Below, in pieces: positions 44,228 to 54,109 of a stretch of DNA of 64,000 nucleotides (positions are counted from its first letter, which is position 1; every line of letters begins with the position of its first letter). Position numbers and translations under genes: made by a program. Source of the stretch: Gammaproteobacteria bacterium (GTDB lineage Bacteria; Pseudomonadota; Gammaproteobacteria; Arenicellales; Poriferihabitantaceae); assembly GCA_030432755.1 (NCBI GenBank), contig JAUILZ010000003.1, positions 62,001-126,000 of the forward strand, read 5' to 3'. A model generated the notes under the pieces. The model searched no databases and was not told where the DNA came from. It saw only the letters and a program-made list of their open reading frames with translations.

Positions 44228-45889
<1,662 letters not shown>

Positions 45890-45930
45890 CGGCGATTGAC
45901 CCGCCGGAGCCCATAAGTACCGATCGAAAC

Positions 45931-46047
45931 GCCAGCGAAGCATGCCCCAGCGAAGGCCGGGGGCTGGCGTCCATGTAGCGACTCCACGGCAACAGCCAGG
46001 TCCGCCCGCCTGGGACCGTTGAAATGGATCCCAGCCTGCGCTGGGAT
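45931..46047. repeat. Palindromic dispersed-repeat-like element
   Basis: The 224-base gap after ettA contains CCCCAGCGAAGGCCGGGGGC and, further on, a perfect hairpin ATCCCAGC-CTGC-GCTGGGAT (46028-46047) after AAATGG. This style (GGATCCCAGC, GCTGGGAT) is common among small intergenic palindromic repeats in proteobacteria. Nothing else is seen in this gap apart from the weakly marked start of the following gene. Confidence 0.5.
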
Positions 46048-46113
46048 TGCGTCGTAGTGGAACGGCACCCATGTCGGACGGGGCTCGTGTTCCGGGTTAA
46101 TATTCCGTCCCCG

Positions 46114-49077
46114 ATGGATACCGGCATCAACAGCACACTGCCCGACACTGCCAGCCTGGCGGATCTCCGTGAGTCATTGATCGCGCGAGGTTGCGAGCGC
46201 ATCTTACTGATATCCGGAGAATCTTCACGATTCAATGCCCTGGTGCTGCCTGCCCTGGAGGGCTTTGCCGTGACGCCATTCACCGGGGCGCGCGTGCATG
46301 TGCCCCGGGAGGAGGTGGACGCCGCACTCGCGGCGCTGGATGCCCACGGCGCGGATACCGTGATCTCGCTGGGCGGCGGATCCGCCACCGGTCTCGGCAA
46401 GGCATTGCGCCTCGAGCGCGATATCCGCTTTATTGCCATCCCCACCACGTATGCCGGATCCGAGTACACGGATATCTACGGCATCACCGAGGCTGGAGAA
46501 AAACGCAATGGCCGCGATCCACGGGTGCGCCCGGACCTCGTGATCCGGGAACCCGCGCTCTACGAAGGCATCCCGAAGGACCTCTCCACCGCCAGCCTGC
46601 TGAACGCGCTCGCGCATCCGCTCAGCCTGTTGGCGGGCGGCAGCCTTTCCGAGGAGGACACGGACGAGGCGCTCGTGGTGACAGGACGCCTCGCCCGGGT
46701 GATGGAATGGCTGGCGAAGTCCCCGGACTCCGTCGCTGCCCGCCAGGAATCTCTAGACGCCGCGGCCCGCGCCGCGAGCCTGATGGGGCGCGGCGAGTAC
46801 GGTGTGCAACATCGTCTCGCGCATTTTCTCGGCGGACATTTCGAACTGCCACATGCCCCGCTGCATGCCACGCTGTTGCCTCACTTTATCCAGTATTTTC
46901 AATCAGATAATCCTGAATTATTCAACCAGATTGTGAATCACACAGGGTGGTCTGATCCTGCCGCGGAGCTGTTCGACCTGCTGCGCCGGGGCGGCGCACC
47001 GCTGTCCCTGCAGCAACTGGGCGTCGGTCCCGCAGACCTGGAGAGAGCGCTCGTGGAACGTCCCGAGCTGAATCTCCCCTGGCTGTGTAACGCCCTGCTC
47101 GGCCGGAGGCCGTCGCTGGCGCTGCATCGATTCGACGCCGGAATGCGTGATCCGGCGGTACGGCTGGGGCCGGCGGTGGCGGACGCGGAGCGGGTTGTGG
47201 TAACACTCCATGGGCGGCGATCCAATGCCGAGCGCGCGCTCGAACTGGCACGTCACGTCGTGGGCAGCGACCCCGGCACCACGCTGATCGCACCACAGGC
47301 CGAAGACAACGAGTGGTTATCGGAACGATATTTCGCATCCCTGGATACCCACGGCGAAGCGCTCGAGCGGGCACTCACCGACATTGCCCGCCTGGTCGAC
47401 GCCCTGCTCGCCGAGACTACGCCGGAACGACTGATCCTGTTCGGCTTTTCCCAGGGCGGATGCCTGGCGATCGAGCTGGTGGCCCGTGGCTTGGTGAAGC
47501 CCACCATGCTGCTCGCTCCCGGAGCCGCGCGCATGGGCCTGGAATCCGAGTGGCCGCGTGTCGGCGTGGATCTCTCGGGCGTCCGGGTATTTCTCGGCGT
47601 CAGCGAACATGATCCCTGGATCCGGCGCGGGGACGTCTGCGCAAGCCGGGCATGGTTTGAATCCGCCGGCGCCGGGGTGGAACGCCTCGATGACCCGGGA
47701 GACCTGCACGCGATCTCCATGCAACAACGCTGGCGCATGCGACGCATGGCGCTCGGGTCCGCCCTGGCCGCGGCGCCCACCGGATACGGCAACGCCGTTT
47801 CCCTGGAAGCCCTGCCAGGCGCGCTGCCTGCCATCCAGAACTCCCCGCGCCACGCGCCCTACGGCCTGTCCGCGGAGCAGGTGAACGGCAGCGCGTTCAC
47901 CACGCGGCGCGGGGAGAACCTGCGCAGCTGGCTGTATCGCATCCGCCCCGGGCCGCAACATGGCAGCCTGCGGCCAATCCAGCATGCCAACTTTGGCGCG
48001 GCAGCCCCGCGCGATCTTGCCGAGCCCAACCTCTCCGGTTTCCGCGCCCCGGCCGCCCCGGACCTGCCGATGGATTTCATCGACGGCCTCGTGACCCTGG
48101 GAGGGGCCGGCGATGTCGATCAACGCCGCGGCTACGCGGTGCATGCCTACAGCGCCGATCGCAGCATGGAGAACCGCGCGTTCTCCAACGCCGACGGCGA
48201 TCTCCTGCTGGTGCCGGTGCAGGGCGAACTGCTGATCATGACCGAATGCGGCGCGCTCACCGCGGGACCCGGGCGCGTCGCGTTGCTCCCGCGCGGCATA
48301 CGCTTCTCCGTCTGCCTGGCGGACTGGTCTCCGGGCCGGCACGTGAGCGGCTATCTTGCGGAAGTCTACGGGCGGCATTTCACCCTCCCCGAACGTGGGC
48401 CCGTGGGCGCCAACGGGCTGGCCGACGCGCGCCACTTCCGCGGCCCTGCGCCCTGGTACGAGGACCGATTCGCCCCCGGCTACCGCGTCACCCTGAAGTC
48501 CGGCGACCGGCTGTTCGAAGCGACCCAGGACTTCTCTCCCCACGATGTCGTGGCCTGGCACGGCAACTACCTGCCCTGGAGCTACGACCTGTCGCTGTTC
48601 TCACCGGTGGGCAATGTCCGCTTCGATCACCCGGACCCGTCGATTCACACCGTGCTATCGGCCCCGCTGGACGAGGCCGGCGTCAACGCGCTGGACTTCG
48701 TGATCTTTGCGCCGCGCTGGGATCCCACGGAGCACACCTTCCGCCCGCCCTACTTCCATCGCAACGCGACGACGGAGATCAACGGCATCATCCACAACCC
48801 GGCGCCGGCGGACAGCCCGTTCCAGCCGGGTTGCCTGTTCGTCACCCCGGCGATGACGCCGCATGGCGTGCGCGCGAGCGGGGTGGAGGGTTTTCTCGCG
48901 CTGGACGATGCCGAGGCCAACCGGCCGGCGCCGCCGGACGAGGACGCGCTGTGGTGCCAGTTCGAGACCGCGCTGCCCTTCCATCCCGCGCGTCATGCCG
49001 CCGCGACGGCGCTACGCATCGACGACTGGCCCCACACCTGGGGCAGTTACCGCTCGTCGTTCAGGGAGTCGCCGTAA
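46114..49077 (+). CDS. Three-domain fusion: maleylacetate-reductase-like, alpha/beta hydrolase, homogentisate-1,2-dioxygenase-like
   Basis: This is one uninterrupted frame of 987 residues. About 1-350 is a maleylacetate reductase/iron-alcohol-dehydrogenase domain with SLGGGSATGLGKAL, IPTTYAGSEYTDIYG and AHFLGGHFELPHA-type metal histidines. About 365-560 is a phospholipase/carboxylesterase-type hydrolase with Ser446 in FGFSQGGC, an Asp in SEHDPW and a His in DLHAIS. About 585-985 is a homogentisate dioxygenase domain with His839, His882, Glu888 and His917. The spacing of these (43, 6 and 29) matches the human enzyme base and Fe ligands (292, 335, 341, 371). It probably cleaves a hydroquinone-type ring and then processes the product. 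The upstream in-frame ATG at 46024 lies in repeat sequence and is unlikely. The overlap with the convergent peroxidase gene is 17 bases. Confidence 0.88.
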   Translation: MDTGINSTLPDTASLADLRESLIARGCERILLISGESSRFNALVLPALEGFAVTPFTGARVHVPREEVDAALAALDAHGADTVISLGGGSATGLGKALRLERDIRFIAIPTTYAGSEYTDIYGITEAGEKRNGRDPRVRPDLVIREPALYEGIPKDLSTASLLNALAHPLSLLAGGSLSEEDTDEALVVTGRLARVMEWLAKSPDSVAARQESLDAAARAASLMGRGEYGVQHRLAHFLGGHFELPHAPLHATLLPHFIQYFQSDNPELFNQIVNHTGWSDPAAELFDLLRRGGAPLSLQQLGVGPADLERALVERPELNLPWLCNALLGRRPSLALHRFDAGMRDPAVRLGPAVADAERVVVTLHGRRSNAERALELARHVVGSDPGTTLIAPQAEDNEWLSERYFASLDTHGEALERALTDIARLVDALLAETTPERLILFGFSQGGCLAIELVARGLVKPTMLLAPGAARMGLESEWPRVGVDLSGVRVFLGVSEHDPWIRRGDVCASRAWFESAGAGVERLDDPGDLHAISMQQRWRMRRMALGSALAAAPTGYGNAVSLEALPGALPAIQNSPRHAPYGLSAEQVNGSAFTTRRGENLRSWLYRIRPGPQHGSLRPIQHANFGAAAPRDLAEPNLSGFRAPAAPDLPMDFIDGLVTLGGAGDVDQRRGYAVHAYSADRSMENRAFSNADGDLLLVPVQGELLIMTECGALTAGPGRVALLPRGIRFSVCLADWSPGRHVSGYLAEVYGRHFTLPERGPVGANGLADARHFRGPAPWYEDRFAPGYRVTLKSGDRLFEATQDFSPHDVVAWHGNYLPWSYDLSLFSPVGNVRFDHPDPSIHTVLSAPLDEAGVNALDFVIFAPRWDPTEHTFRPPYFHRNATTEINGIIHNPAPADSPFQPGCLFVTPAMTPHGVRASGVEGFLALDDAEANRPAPPDEDALWCQFETALPFHPARHAAATALRIDDWPHTWGSYRSSFRESP

Positions 49078-50278
49078 CGGGATCCCCGGTCAGCGTCCGG
49101 AGAAAGGCTTCCAGGTCCGCCCGCCCGGTGGCGTCGAGGCCGAGAGGGCGAAGCAACGACTCGCCGTCCTCGTGGAAGAGGTTCATGTTTATCTCGTCGT
49201 AGTGGCGTACCACCGCCGGGAGGTCGGCAACCGAACCGTCGTGCATATACGGCGCTGTAGCCGCCACGTTGCGCAGCGAGGGTACGCGGAAGCGGCCCCA
49301 GTCGTCGTGGCTTCGGACGACGAAGTTCCCCGGCGCCCGCGCGGCGCTCTCCGGGTCCTCGTCGCTGAACTTCCCGGTGCGCCGGTAGGGGCTCGCACGG
49401 TACTTGCCGATACCGCCGTGGCGGCCGGGATCCACGCTACCGTTGCGGGTAAAGTGGGGTACCCCCGCGTGGTGAAACTCGTCGTTGGAAAAATTGGGAC
49501 CGAAGTGGCACAGGCTGCATCGGCCCTCTCCGACGAACAGCTTCAGGCCGCGGCGCGCGGACCGGGAAAACACGTTGTCCGGCACGTCGCGGTCCTCCGC
49601 AAGCGCATCACGAAATCGGTCGAAGGCGGTGCGCGGCGTCACCAGTGTTTCCTGCCAGGCCGCCAGACTCTTGGCAATATTCACCAGCACCTCCCTTGGT
49701 GGATCGTCGACAGGGGAGCGCCCTGTAACCTCCAGGTAAGTTCGCGCGAGATCCGCTTCCTCGATGATGCGCCGCGCCAGGGAATTCTCGTCCTGGGCCA
49801 GTTCGTCCGGGTTCAGGATCGGGTGGATGCTCTGCGCCCACAGATTGTCGGATCGCCCGTCCCAGCCGAACCAGCGCCGTCCCGAAAGGTTGGCGAGGGC
49901 CGGTGTATTGCGATCGAGTTCTCGCCGGCCCAGGGCACGGGGCTTGCCGTCTCCCATGGCATGGCGCGCCTCGTGACAGGTGGCGCATTGCATCGAACCG
50001 TCTGCCGACAGGCGCGCATCGTGAAACAGCGCGCGACCGAAACGTATCGCGTCGTCATCGCCGGAAAAGCGGTTGCTGATATCCGGGTCGGGCGCCGGGG
50101 GCCACGGCCCGTGAGCGATGATCATGGCGCGCTCCGCCCCGGAAAATGTTACGCCGGCCGAAAACTGCGCGAACGCTGGCTGGAAAAACCAACCAAGGAA
50201 CGCCAGCGCGATGAGAGGCCTCAGGGCGTTGCGGCCGGATGCCACCGGCCACGTATCAGGGATCCAGCGCCAGTTCAC
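49061..50278 (-). CDS. Exported dihaem cytochrome c peroxidase/MauG-like protein
   Basis: The protein has 405 residues with a GTG start, a signal peptide ending near AFAQ, and two haem motifs: CATCH (about 95) and CSLCH (about 255). Later methionine and histidine ligand regions are ATAPYMHDGSVADLP and HYDEINMN. The length and haem pair fit the bacterial cytochrome c peroxidase/MauG superfamily, which acts in the periplasm on peroxide or on a protein substrate. It follows two other exported-protein genes. Confidence 0.85.
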   Translation of the reverse strand: MNWRWIPDTWPVASGRNALRPLIALAFLGWFFQPAFAQFSAGVTFSGAERAMIIAHGPWPPAPDPDISNRFSGDDDAIRFGRALFHDARLSADGSMQCATCHEARHAMGDGKPRALGRRELDRNTPALANLSGRRWFGWDGRSDNLWAQSIHPILNPDELAQDENSLARRIIEEADLARTYLEVTGRSPVDDPPREVLVNIAKSLAAWQETLVTPRTAFDRFRDALAEDRDVPDNVFSRSARRGLKLFVGEGRCSLCHFGPNFSNDEFHHAGVPHFTRNGSVDPGRHGGIGKYRASPYRRTGKFSDEDPESAARAPGNFVVRSHDDWGRFRVPSLRNVAATAPYMHDGSVADLPAVVRHYDEINMNLFHEDGESLLRPLGLDATGRADLEAFLRTLTGDPVTATP

Positions 50279-50680: not shown

Positions 50681-51529
50681 TCAATTTTCTCGAGACTTTG
50701 CTGACTGGATAAGGTTCTCGGCATTGCGCCAGGCGATGTTCTCCACGAGTTCGGGCGGCAGATCCTTCAGCCATTCGCGGGTCCAGGCCGCCTGTTCGCG
50801 AACATAGTACCAGCGCTCCGGCGTGAAGGTATCGGTGCCGGGCATGAAGCGGTCGGGAAATTCCTCGAACAGCGCGCGCCACTCCGGGTCCACCACGCCA
50901 TTGCGCGCATGCTCGGAGCGGAAGGCAAGGTCCGCCCACAGGTTGGGATAGCTTGATAGCATGCGGCGGATCTCCTCCACCCCCGTGAATCCGCTGTGCG
51001 CCCAGAGCACGCGCGCGTCCGGGTCGGTGGCGAAGATCCGTTCCACCGCGTCGGCGTCGGAATGGGCATGCAGAAAAAGCCTGTGCTCCCGCGCGAGTCG
51101 GATCACCGCCTGCATCACGTCCGTCTCCACGTCGTCGCCGAAGGCATGGAACTCGCCGATGCCGACGTAGATCCCCGCTGCCAGGCGCTCCTCCAGGTAG
51201 GGGATCACGCTGGCATCGCCGGTCCAGGTGGATATCTCCCCGCGCGAGCGATAGGGCCTGAGCACCGGCACCACCAGTTCCGGCGCGAGCGCGTAGAGCT
51301 TGAGCGTACCGTCGTCACTGGAACTGGAGACGAAGGCCATGCGCAGGCCGGCATCGCGCAGGATGCCCACCGCCTCCTCCGGGGGATAGACAGACCACGC
51401 GTCGTGGCTGTAGTGGATGTGGGCGTCAACGATCGCCGTCTTCACATCCTGCGCCATCGAATACGGTGCAAAGCTTGTGAAGAGCAGCGGCAAGGCGCGG
51501 ACAAGGATCGGTGTCATCCTCATTGACAT
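50681..51529 (-). CDS. Exported amidohydrolase-family (Amidohydro_2) protein
   Basis: The protein has 282 residues. A signal peptide (about 1-27, ending SMAQ) precedes a TIM-barrel hydrolase with IVDAHIHYSHD (metal HxH), GIGEFHAFG, LFLHAHSDAD, LWAHSGF and PGTDTFTPERW with the catalytic Asp. PF04909-type enzymes hydrolyse or decarboxylate lactones and aromatic acids. Export is uncommon in that group. It heads the three-gene exported-protein operon. Confidence 0.75.
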   Translation of the reverse strand: MSMRMTPILVRALPLLFTSFAPYSMAQDVKTAIVDAHIHYSHDAWSVYPPEEAVGILRDAGLRMAFVSSSSDDGTLKLYALAPELVVPVLRPYRSRGEISTWTGDASVIPYLEERLAAGIYVGIGEFHAFGDDVETDVMQAVIRLAREHRLFLHAHSDADAVERIFATDPDARVLWAHSGFTGVEEIRRMLSSYPNLWADLAFRSEHARNGVVDPEWRALFEEFPDRFMPGTDTFTPERWYYVREQAAWTREWLKDLPPELVENIAWRNAENLIQSAKSREN

Positions 51530-51609
51530 GGTAACAATCTGGTTGCGCGATCAATGATACACGGGCCACGCGGGTGGCTGCAGGTCCCGCGCCACCGGGA
51601 GGTTTCGAT

Positions 51610-51963
51610 TCAGTCCGAAGGGACGACGCAGAAGCGGTGTCCCGAGGGAGCTTCCATGACCCACCAGTCGCGCACGGACTCCACGCGTCGAGCGCCGAGC
51701 TTTTCGAGACGGTCGACTTCGGCAGTCACATCATCGGCGGCGATATCGAGATGCACGCGCGGCTCGTGCGTCACGCGCTGGAGCTCGATATGGGGCTCGC
51801 CAGCGACGTCTTCGAGCACCACGTAGCCTGCGTCTTCCGATGCATCCGAGGGCGTGATCGCACGGCCGAGGACCTGGCTCCAGAAACACGCCGCATCGTC
51901 CAGGTCGGTGGTGGCCTGGCAGTCGATGATGAATCCGGCCAGTCGACCACGGTGTTGACTCAT
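51610..51963 (-). CDS. VOC-family (glyoxalase-like) protein
   Basis: The protein has 117 residues. One VOC repeat pair is seen: FIIDCQATTDLDDAACFWSQ, GEPHIELQRV, HLDIAADDVTAEVDRLEKLG and VMEAPSGHRFCVVP with glyoxalase-type metal positions. The ATG overlaps the stop of the beta-keto acid cleavage enzyme gene as ATGA. Its role is unknown, perhaps an isomerase or epimerase in that pathway. Confidence 0.8.
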   Translation of the reverse strand: MSQHRGRLAGFIIDCQATTDLDDAACFWSQVLGRAITPSDASEDAGYVVLEDVAGEPHIELQRVTHEPRVHLDIAADDVTAEVDRLEKLGARRVESVRDWWVMEAPSGHRFCVVPSD

Positions 51964-52784
51964 GGCAACGCGACGCCGAGGAGTTCCGCCGCCTGCGTGG
52001 TATCCGCAATGCGGACGCCATCCGCCTCGGCGGCTTCCCTGAGCGCGGTCACCTGGTCCGCGGTGTAACGTGCCTGCGAACCATCCGGCCGGAGCAGGTT
52101 GTTCTCGAATCCCACCCGCGCGTGACCACCCCGGTGAATCGCGGACAACGCGCAGTCATGTTCGTGACTACCGAAAGCGCAGACGAACCAGTCCAGCGGG
52201 CGCTCGCCCCTGGCATCGAGAAACGGGTCGATGTCCGAAGGTACCGACTCGCGGTTTTCGAGGTAACGCCCGAGGACGAACAGCGCGCACAGTCGTCCCT
52301 GCGGAACAACTCCCTGTTCCTGCAACACGAACAGGCGCTCGAGGTCGGCGCCGTCGTAGACGATGTGTTGCACATGCACGCCGCGTTCACGGCTCCAGTG
52401 GTAGAACTCCGTGGCCAGTGCCAGGTCGGCGCCCTCCCCCGCCATCTCCCGCACCGCCATGCTGATCAGGCGCGGCGTCAACGCATAGACGCAGTCCGCC
52501 TGCTCGCTGGGGGTGTAGCGACCCACCGCCTCGGTGGTCATCTGCAGCAACATGCCGGGCACCGCTTCTTCCATGGCGGCAAACAACTGGCGATAGCGCG
52601 CGGGATCGAGGACATGTTCACCCTGGTCGCCACGCACGTGGGCGTGGAGGATGGTGGCGCCGGCGGCATGGCAGCGCGCCGCCTCGTCCACGGTCTCGGC
52701 GATGCTCACCGGCAGGTTGGGATGGTCGGCATGGGTCTTGCGCGCGCCGTTGGGCGCGGCCATGAGAATGGCGGTATGGGTCAT
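51960..52784 (-). CDS. Beta-keto acid cleavage enzyme (BKACE, DUF849)
   Basis: The protein has 274 residues. The TIM-barrel signatures TILHAHVRGDQGEH (zinc-binding HxH) and HRGGHARVGFENNL match the BKACE family. Members condense a beta-keto acid with acetyl-CoA and release acetoacetate and a CoA ester. The overlapping upstream gene is a class III aminotransferase, which could make the beta-keto acid from a beta-amino acid. The substrate is inferred only. Confidence 0.88.
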   Translation of the reverse strand: MTHTAILMAAPNGARKTHADHPNLPVSIAETVDEAARCHAAGATILHAHVRGDQGEHVLDPARYRQLFAAMEEAVPGMLLQMTTEAVGRYTPSEQADCVYALTPRLISMAVREMAGEGADLALATEFYHWSRERGVHVQHIVYDGADLERLFVLQEQGVVPQGRLCALFVLGRYLENRESVPSDIDPFLDARGERPLDWFVCAFGSHEHDCALSAIHRGGHARVGFENNLLRPDGSQARYTADQVTALREAAEADGVRIADTTQAAELLGVALP

Positions 52785-54109
52785 GTTCCCGTGGTCGCCT
52801 GATCGACGGCGATAGCGAGCTTGTCCACCAGTTCGTCAATCTGCTCGTCGCTGATGATGAAAGGCGGGGCGACGAGGACGTGATCCCCCGCCTGGCCATC
52901 GATGGTCCCGCCCATGGGGTAGCAGATCAGGCCGGCATCGAAGGCGGCTTTCTTGATCCCCGCATGCACCTTGCGACCGGGATCGAACGGCGTCTTGTGC
53001 ACGCGGTCTTCAACGATTTCCAGGCCGCGAAACAGACCCCGGCCACGGATGTCGCCGACATGTGGATGGGCGTCGAAACGGGTTCGCAACGCCCTGTCGA
53101 GTTTATTACCCTGCTGCTGGCAGCGGTCCACCAGTTTGCGCTCGAGCAATGCCTGCACCACCGCGCGCCCCGCGGCGCAGGCCACGGGATGGCCGATATA
53201 GGTATGGCCGTGCTGGAAGAAACCGCTGCCCTCGGACACCGCGCGGTAGATCTCCGCGCTGCAGAGCGTGGCGCCGATGGGCTGGTACCCCGCGCCGAGG
53301 CCCTTGGCGATGGTGACGATGTCCGGCGCGACGCCGTCCTGCTCGCAGGCGAACAGGGTGCCGGTGCGCCCCATGCCGCACATCACCTCGTCGAGGATGA
53401 GGAGTACACCATGGCGGTCGCAGATCTCGCGGACGCGGCGAAAATAGCCCGGTACCGCCGGCACCGCGCCCAGCGTCGCGCCGACCACCGGCTCGGCGAT
53501 GAACGCCATCACCGATTCGGGGCCGAGACGCAGGATCTCGGCCTCCAGTTCGTCCGCGACCCGATGTCCATATTCCTCGAGACTCTCGCCATCCTGCTGC
53601 CCACGCCAGGCATAGCACGGGCTGATATGGGTGGTATCCATCAACAGCGGAGCAAAGGGTTCGCGGCGCCACATGTTGCCCCCTGCCGCCAAAGCTCCCA
53701 GGGTATTGCCGTGATAACTCTGCTTGCGCGCGATCAGGCGATGACGGCCCGGTTCACCCTTCTCGAGAAAATACTGTCGCGCGAGCTTGATCGCCGCCTC
53801 CACGGCCTCCGAGCCGCCGGAGACGAAGTACACCCGCACAAGGTCGCCGGGCGCATTCGCGATCAGCAGGTCCGCCAGCGCTTCCGCCGGCTCGCTGGTG
53901 AAGAACCCGGTATGGGCGAAGGCAAGGGTATCGAGCTGCGTCTTGATCGCCGCGATGACGGCGGCGTCGCCGTGGCCGAGGCAGGAAACCGCGGCGCCAC
54001 CGGAGCCATCCAGGTAGGCCTTGCCACCGGCGTCGTAGAGATAGCAACCCTCGGCGCGCACGGCGAGCGGTGGAACCGCGCGGGTATGACGGGGAAAGAC
54101 GTGATCCAT
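52781..54109 (-). CDS. Class III pyridoxal-phosphate aminotransferase
   Basis: The protein has 442 residues. The PLP site lysine is in TIAKGLGAGYQPIGA, the cofactor aspartate region in LLILDEVMCGMGRTG, and YFVSGGSEAVEAAIKLARQ is the class III substrate loop. It transfers an amino group from an omega- or beta-amino compound to pyruvate or a keto acid. It overlaps the BKACE gene as ATGA and follows the ABC transporter ATPase gene. Confidence 0.9.
   Translation of the reverse strand: MDHVFPRHTRAVPPLAVRAEGCYLYDAGGKAYLDGSGGAAVSCLGHGDAAVIAAIKTQLDTLAFAHTGFFTSEPAEALADLLIANAPGDLVRVYFVSGGSEAVEAAIKLARQYFLEKGEPGRHRLIARKQSYHGNTLGALAAGGNMWRREPFAPLLMDTTHISPCYAWRGQQDGESLEEYGHRVADELEAEILRLGPESVMAFIAEPVVGATLGAVPAVPGYFRRVREICDRHGVLLILDEVMCGMGRTGTLFACEQDGVAPDIVTIAKGLGAGYQPIGATLCSAEIYRAVSEGSGFFQHGHTYIGHPVACAAGRAVVQALLERKLVDRCQQQGNKLDRALRTRFDAHPHVGDIRGRGLFRGLEIVEDRVHKTPFDPGRKVHAGIKKAAFDAGLICYPMGGTIDGQAGDHVLVAPPFIISDEQIDELVDKLAIAVDQATTGT

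Follow-up and report, generated by a model that had tools for sequence, protein, structure and literature searches.

A conserved family of proteins joining maleylacetate reductase, serine hydrolase and homogentisate-dioxygenase-like domains in one chain, with a member in a Gammaproteobacteria genome

Results

Gene and domain layout

The gene described here (P0001) occupies positions 46114-49077 on the forward strand of a 64,000-nucleotide stretch of contig JAUILZ010000003.1 from the Gammaproteobacteria bacterium assembly GCA_030432755.1. This whole stretch is referred to as the window, and positions are given in its numbering. Translation yields a single open frame of 987 residues with one terminal stop and no internal stop, and an alternative in-frame ATG at 46024 would extend the product to 1017 amino acids. 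Three domains follow one another in the chain, an arrangement found in 15 full-length relatives. Residues 14-340 (46153-47133, forward strand, as all features of the gene) form a maleylacetate reductase (MAR) domain of the iron-containing alcohol dehydrogenase (iron-ADH) family, delineated by Pfam, PDB sequence search, Foldseek and alignment. Residues 351-540 (47164-47733) form an alpha/beta serine hydrolase domain, recognized by PDB sequence search and an alignment of 16 proteins. Residues 555-984 (47776-49065) form a cupin dioxygenase domain resembling homogentisate 1,2-dioxygenase (HGD), according to Pfam, PDB search, tree and alignment.

The Pfam models matched are Fe-ADH (residues 14-147), ADH_Fe_C (200-311), HgmA_N (556-826) and HgmA_C (828-982). 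The match to Abhydrolase_2 at residues 415-456 is weak, its 19.4 bits lying below the 23-bit cut-off; that cut-off is passed by the relatives L132 (42.3 bits) and L061 (28.3 bits). The structure model of the full-length protein has a mean pLDDT of 65 and a pTM of 0.62, with good MAR and hydrolase parts (pLDDT mostly around 90 in the latter) and a poor HGD part. An initial annotation made from the letters of the window had described one 987-residue frame without a stop, three readable catalytic sites and dioxygenase residues spaced almost exactly as in human HGD. All three statements are upheld, the first by the translation and the others by the alignments presented below, in which the listed residues are in place and kept in all 16 fusions.

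A family of three-domain proteins

Sixteen full-length three-domain proteins are in hand, namely the window's protein and 15 others, 14 of which originate from Myxococcota. The set is made up of 12 intact frames from the Myxococcota search described hereafter, L061, L062 and L067 from genomes outside that draw, and the window's protein. In each of the sixteen, all three domains retain the listed catalytic residues. When a two-row MAR alignment (A2) was used to scan named genomes for its pattern, 19 loci were returned, seven of which (L061-L063 and L065-L068) carry the MAR, hydrolase and HGD-like domains in one frame of 983-1052 codons, counted from the first possible start. These seven fusions are 46-49% identical to the window's protein over the full length (alignment A3). 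At L069 the fusion is cut by a contig end, and its apparent remainder is located on another contig of the same genome.

The Myxococcota search covered 377 genomes from the phylum to which G543, a metagenome-assembled genome (MAG) of Sandaracinaceae, belongs, with two candidates scored per genome, and 46 genomes gave a match at E <=1e-60. The three-domain frame is intact in 12 of them (G541, G543, G544, G546, G622, G716, G750, G759, G797, G867, G907 and G915) and cut by contig ends in three (G547, G552 and G910). Six genomes (G549, G758, G786, G801, G842 and G892; loci L073 and L108-L112) encode a MAR-HGD fusion devoid of the hydrolase. MAR and HGD are adjacent frames in G690 (L114) and G846 (L115, with a 4-bp overlap), and a MAR-hydrolase gene adjoins an HGD frame in G768 (L118). 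An HGD-like gene of the same clade is found in G697 and G876 (L113 and L116) without a MAR near it, and G819, G880 and G913 show a MAR or MAR-hydrolase match only. The remaining 17 genomes show an HGD match only; the four HGDs inspected there (L117 and L119-L121) all have the ordinary active-site motif, the 13 others being outside the motif count.

The three-domain layout is therefore that of a real, conserved protein family, mostly found in Myxococcota. Paraliomyxa miuraensis has a homologue. Because the same domains also occur fused in pairs or in adjacent genes, the predicted activities of the MAR, hydrolase and HGD-like domains are linked. The proposal that one chain holds three enzymes of one likely pathway is strengthened by the fused, part-fused and neighbouring domains of Myxococcota.

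Searches elsewhere delimit this distribution. A single-protein query against genome contigs gave 14 pattern matches and no relative of the fusion. No other fusion, judged by listed matches spanning two domains, was found in Pseudomonadota among overlapping sets of 145, 398 and 109 genomes (G000-G538, the window's own included), in which up to five, two and seven candidates, respectively, were scored per genome, so that a weaker second copy could escape. None of the 520 matching plasmid records covers 80% of the fusion protein, and 28 pattern matches in viral contigs include no relative of it. Separately, five Pseudomonadota genomes have long MAR frames that might have been known MAR fusions; of the three run on Pfam, one is a read-through from an MFS transporter and two are MAR only. 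A database name presumably exists for MAR fused to hydroxyquinol dioxygenase. No description of the three-domain fusion was found in literature searches covering titles and abstract starts (two surveyed in part). The initial view that no such three-part enzyme had been described thus holds for this literature; the protein is nevertheless not unique, given its 15 full-length relatives.

The HGD-like dioxygenase domain

The best-known counterpart of the third domain is homogentisate 1,2-dioxygenase (HgmA/HGD; PDB 1ey2 and 3zds/4aq2), with which it shares the whole two-part HgmA sequence. Human HGD (1ey2) is matched in the PDB sequence search at E 4e-99, and HGDs from the genome searches are 39-47% identical to the window's domain over most of its length. 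In the alignment with 1ey2, His839 (48628-48630), His882 and Glu888 (48757-48777) and His917 (48862-48864) correspond to His292, His335, Glu341 and His371, respectively, with equal spacing; His882, Glu888 and His917 occupy the positions of the iron ligands. Tyr350, Lys353 and His365 of the human enzyme presumably hold homogentisate. The first two belong to the YD[AG]K motif of ordinary HGDs, and the corresponding loop is altered in the window's protein (48790-48828).

These positions were compared in a 75-row alignment from which identical rows and matches shorter than 330 amino acids in one open reading frame had been left out. All 45 ordinary HGDs have Tyr, Lys and His at the three pocket positions, against none of the 30 members of the window's clade, and the YD[AG]K motif is distributed in the same way (45/45 versus 0/30). 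The His365 position is Thr in 28 clade rows and Ser in the two others, and the Pro373 position is changed in 29 of the 30. His292, His335 and Glu341 are kept throughout the clade, and His371 in 29 rows. The 30 include L113 and L116, placed there by sequence and tree, with no MAR close to either; L058 was excluded from alignment A1, its stretch containing a stop. A maximum-likelihood tree of 45 HGD domains was built from the whole clade (the window's domain and 29 further members) and one in three of the 45 ordinary HGDs; the 30 clade rows separate from the 15 ordinary ones with a support of 100/100. Within this clade, the window's domain falls in an 11-row subgroup of three-domain proteins (support 100/99), the rest of which is from Myxococcota except for the MAG L062, labelled 'Proteobacteria bacterium' by NCBI, whose nearest row in the tree is a Myxococcales MAG. 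The score against TIGR01015, the homogentisate dioxygenase equivalog model, is 417.6 bits and does not reach the 510.75 cut-off. The domain thus differs from homogentisate 1,2-dioxygenase in its separate clade, in its fusion to MAR and hydrolase and in this score. Its own clade, altered pocket residues and score below the cut-off mark it as an HGD relative, most likely acting on a quinol other than homogentisate. Homogentisate itself appears an unlikely substrate, since the positions of Tyr350, Lys353 and His365 differ from those of the 45 ordinary HGDs.

The possibility was nevertheless weighed that the protein serves tyrosine catabolism as a genuine homogentisate 1,2-dioxygenase, with MAR and hydrolase replacing the isomerase and fumarylacetoacetase. 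HgmA_N and HgmA_C are matched far above their cut-offs, the only HgmA_C match in the window's own genome is the fusion gene, so that no other HGD is present there, and a glutathione S-transferase (GST) gene lies near seven of 25 related loci; in the two GSTs scanned, the maiA model was matched well below its cut-off. Against these points stand the TIGR01015 score and the pocket positions, changed in all 30 clade members. In addition, the fusion-bearing genomes G544 and G547 each encode another HGD, in which the ordinary motif is present (L091 and L090, respectively), and a second HGD match is also present in G797 and G915, two Myxococcota with the fusion. Finally, neither the 4-hydroxyphenylpyruvate dioxygenase (HPPD) model nor the fumarylacetoacetase model is matched in the window's own genome, which is 83% complete; among 14 control genomes, the two were matched in eight and five, respectively. 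As HgmA_C is matched once and the two other models not at all, the gene is unlikely to serve the tyrosine route, and we regard this explanation as improbable.

The hydrolase domain and its plasmid relatives

The hydrolase domain matches PDB entry 4h0c at E 5e-15 over residues 351-537. Alignment with 4h0c places the catalytic triad at Ser446 (47449-47451), Asp500 (47611-47613) and His532 (47707-47709), with GFSQGG as the nucleophile motif (GxSxG). The triad is unchanged in the 16 three-domain proteins. The MhqD model NF047577 gives 16.9 bits on the window's protein and its cut-off of 325 is not reached.

This hydrolase matched 58 plasmid records, and 13 regions holding its best relatives were read. 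In all 13, the hydrolase is beside, or fused to, a gene for a vicinal oxygen chelate (VOC) or ring-cleaving dioxygenase. A MAR is also present in three (Deinococcus ficus, Deinococcus sp. D7000 and Martelella AD-3), a MarR regulator in four and WrbA in three. In Deinococcus ficus, a MarR regulator and a WrbA quinone reductase adjoin a VOC-hydrolase fusion, which is followed by MAR. The association of this hydrolase with a ring-cleaving dioxygenase, at times with MAR, is a known working set, and its recurrence on plasmids strengthens the one-pathway claim.

Two other arrangements were observed. On plasmid pDFI1 of Deinococcus ficus (L054, 2951-4624), the gene annotated 'VOC family protein' covers the hydrolase match; here, as in L154 and L156, the hydrolase is joined to a ring-cleaving dioxygenase in a fusion separate from the three-domain one. 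L071 and L072 (G539 and G545) encode two-domain MAR-hydrolase proteins in genomes also holding a three-domain fusion; the best match of their hydrolase is that of the Deinococcus VOC-hydrolase fusion.

The MAR domain

The best PDB matches of the MAR domain, by sequence and fold alike, are maleylacetate reductases (GraC 3w5s and 3hl0) and the iron-ADH 3jzd. MAR enzymes are dimers and HGD enzymes hexamers. In the sequence search, 3jzd, named iron-containing alcohol dehydrogenase, comes first (E 7e-55), followed by the maleylacetate reductases 3hl0 (E 4e-50) and 3w5s (E 1e-46). When the predicted model is searched with Foldseek, 3hl0 comes out on top, the best five chains being 3hl0 (two chains), 3w5s, 3jzd and 3iv7, the latter another iron-containing alcohol dehydrogenase. 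Asn164, His168, His233, His237, His247 and His251 are unchanged in the 16 fusions, and the glycine-rich NAD(P)-binding motif retains Gly88 in all and Gly89 in 14 of them. Asn164 and the His set are also common to the MARs of Deinococcus and Martelella.

Unlike these maleylacetate reductases, the window's MAR is the N-terminal part of a fusion and belongs to a particular subclade. In a tree of 37 MAR domains, eight further fusions join it in an 11-row subclade (support 100/100), along with two single MARs; one of these, L016, comes from Arenicellales and is the gene also contained in L060. It is 43-48% identical to the fused members of the subclade and 31-41% to MARs from the other searches and the alignment. 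The MARs of the other fusions (L099-L104 and L106) find their best match, among the queries used, in an ordinary MAR. The presence of single MARs inside the subclade implies either late fusion there or domain loss.

The known substrate of MAR is maleylacetate, which is in favor of an enzyme for hydroxyquinol or a halo- or methoxy-hydroquinone, operating as in the lin/pcp routes. Ring cleavage would give maleylacetate or an acyl derivative, the hydrolase would deacylate or de-esterify it and MAR would produce 3-oxoadipate. MAR-HGD fusions without hydrolase are indeed expected if the hydrolase is needed for some substrates only. However, the retention of the hydrolase and its triad in the 16 three-domain proteins suggests a regular step, and no recognized neighbor marks a halogenated or methoxylated substrate. 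We consider this alternative rather unlikely, while giving it more weight than the homogentisate explanation.

Genomic context and origin

The gene lies between two genes native to the genus. On its left, EttA (an ABC-F ATPase, 44228-45889, forward) is matched in all four congeners searched, none of which contains the fusion. On its right, a convergent gene for a di-haem cytochrome c peroxidase (CCP_MauG, 49061-50278, reverse) overlaps the fusion gene by 17 bp. The intervening segment, 45891-49060, is lacking in congener G004: there the match to EttA stops at window position 45890, and the following match, which starts at 49061 within the peroxidase gene, lies 71 bp further along the congener's contig. 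In G003, a match to a keto-acid cleavage enzyme begins about 275 bp beyond EttA, the fusion, peroxidase and amidohydrolase all being missing. About 2.2 kb separate the EttA and keto-acid cleavage enzyme matches in G002, and G001 has no downstream match among those listed.

The absence of the segment between the same flanks in G004, together with the tree, makes a gain by horizontal transfer the simplest reading of these sequences, with Myxococcota as the most likely donor; loss in the congeners is a possible alternative. An assembly artefact or a chance read-through of three genes might be invoked for a draft genome of 58 contigs whose four searched congeners lack the fusion. With one-frame, full-length fusions in the same order in 15 other genomes, flanks native to the genus and an empty site in G004, neither chance nor an assembly join accounts for the gene, and the probability left to such an origin is negligible. 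The frameshift or assembly join named in the initial annotation as a refutation of the fusion is accordingly very unlikely.

Two further features were noted around the gene. At the left side of the acquired segment, positions 45919-45980 hold a 50-60 bp dispersed intergenic repeat, at least 16 copies of which, 81-98% identical, are found on other contigs of the same genome. Downstream, an amidohydrolase, a beta-keto acid cleavage enzyme and a class III aminotransferase lie in a row on the reverse strand (50681-54109), with a permease and a solute-binding protein beyond; the ensemble resembles an amine or amino-acid catabolic cluster.

The neighborhoods of 25 loci with fusions or clade members were also clustered, using frames called by a simple composition rule, and the counts serve as leads only. 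An acyl-CoA ligase is found at 10 loci, GST at seven and pirin at six, together with protein-kinase-like frames (seven), citryl-CoA-lyase-like frames (four) and a small VOC protein (three). Clusters were named from eight representatives, the kinases from sequence only. At L130 (3646-4404), L134, L136 and L063, the citryl-CoA-lyase-like frame has an acyl-CoA ligase close by, and the two could represent further pathway steps. The ligases near 10 of the 25 loci and the concentration of the family in Myxococcota would suit a role outside catabolism, in the tailoring of secondary metabolites in myxobacteria. In the window, the gene has no companion between EttA and the peroxidase, which speaks against that role; this alternative has hardly been tested, as polyketide synthase (PKS) and nonribosomal peptide synthetase (NRPS) genes were not searched for, and we hold it to be very improbable.

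Discussion

Taken together, these observations make it reasonably probable that the window's protein, with three activities in one chain, degrades or detoxifies a substituted hydroquinone-type ring. Its gene was most likely acquired from Myxococcota by this gammaproteobacterium, a member of the order Arenicellales. The following mechanism can be proposed. By analogy with HGD chemistry, the HGD-like cupin would bind Fe(II) and O2 and cleave the ring next to a hydroxyl, yielding a maleylacetone-like 4,6-dioxo-2-enoate. By analogy with MAR chemistry, the MAR domain would then use NAD(P)H to reduce the C=C bond beside the ketone (the 2,3 bond), in place of the isomerase of the homogentisate route. 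The Ser-His-Asp hydrolase would finally split the remaining 1,3-diketone into succinate and a ketone, or into an acid and a 4-oxo acid. Such a route would use each domain once and would not need an isomerase. MAR-HGD proteins without hydrolase may serve substrates whose cleavage yields maleylacetate directly. The substrate and the order of the reactions are our suppositions. The initial annotation had proposed a path from a hydroquinone ring to a reduced keto acid within one protein; three enzymes of one likely pathway are retained from this proposal, its endpoint appears less fitting, and homogentisate is an unlikely starting point. A reduced keto acid would leave the hydrolase without a task, so that a 1,3-diketone first reduced and then hydrolyzed fits the three domains better.

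The closest functional parallel appears to be the MhqO-MhqD type of system. In a 2025 study of mhqPOD, the MhqO dioxygenase is described with an adjacent C-C hydrolase, MhqD; resistance to 2-methylhydroquinone is cited for the mhq genes of B. subtilis; and in Agrobacterium sp. B1 an mhqO-like gene adjoins a MAR gene, for which its authors suggest possible hydroxyquinol cleavage (PMC12673573). The three functions are found together in both types of system (MAR only sometimes), with a hydrolase of the same kind. Deinococcus plasmids hold either a VOC-hydrolase fusion adjoining MAR or three separate genes, and pirin is located beside some loci of both kinds. The window's protein differs in that its dioxygenase is an HGD-type cupin, of a fold other than VOC, and in that all three functions are united in one chain; the substrate proposed for the Paenibacillus B2 mhqPOD system is a biphenyl acid (PMC12673573). 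By analogy, the protein is best read as a fused equivalent of the mhq-type systems that degrade or detoxify quinols, in which a cupin would replace the VOC dioxygenase.

Quinol ring cleavage followed by MAR is also the principle of the chlorohydroquinone route of LinE/PcpA and LinF/PcpE, which relies on VOC dioxygenases encoded by separate genes and is not known to involve a hydrolase.

Several points weigh against the trifunctional quinol enzyme favored here. The enzyme activities are predicted from sequence. The HGD domain modeled alone has a mean pLDDT of 31, and what is said of it derives from sequence alignment. In L105 (G910), a family member truncated by its contig, the third iron ligand (His917 in the window's protein) is replaced by Tyr, for which reason its dioxygenase domain may be inactive. 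No MAR is present among the genes called within 15 and 17 kb of L113 and L116, respectively, and a draft frameshift could mimic separate genes in L114 and L118. The neighbors vary, and the window's gene has no acyl-CoA ligase, GST or pirin beside it; the substrate cannot be read from the context, because the neighbors are not constant and the window's gene has none of them. With a genome 83% complete, the missing tyrosine genes are weak evidence. Lastly, Paenibacillus MhqO and MhqD are assigned by the authors to a lignin biphenyl acid and a catechol-type extradiol cleavage (PMC12673573), and kinship with mhq alone is consequently not equivalent to a quinol substrate.

Conclusions

The protein combines known enzyme families in a new way, and its dioxygenase probably has a new specificity. 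A more ambitious and still tentative interpretation is that of a new route for substituted hydroquinones, operating mainly in Myxococcota, with a cupin of new specificity, MAR in place of the isomerase, a hydrolase that splits the saturated diketone, and an unstable intermediate passed between the domains. The clade of HGD-like dioxygenases matches the HgmA models despite three changed pocket positions, and annotation of tyrosine catabolism could be wrong in genomes holding only this clade. Gene fusion ties MAR, hydrolase and HGD-type cupin into one pathway and designates a compact candidate enzyme for quinol removal. If the new route is real, the series leading from separate genes to two-domain and then three-domain proteins would be an example of a pathway condensing into one enzyme.

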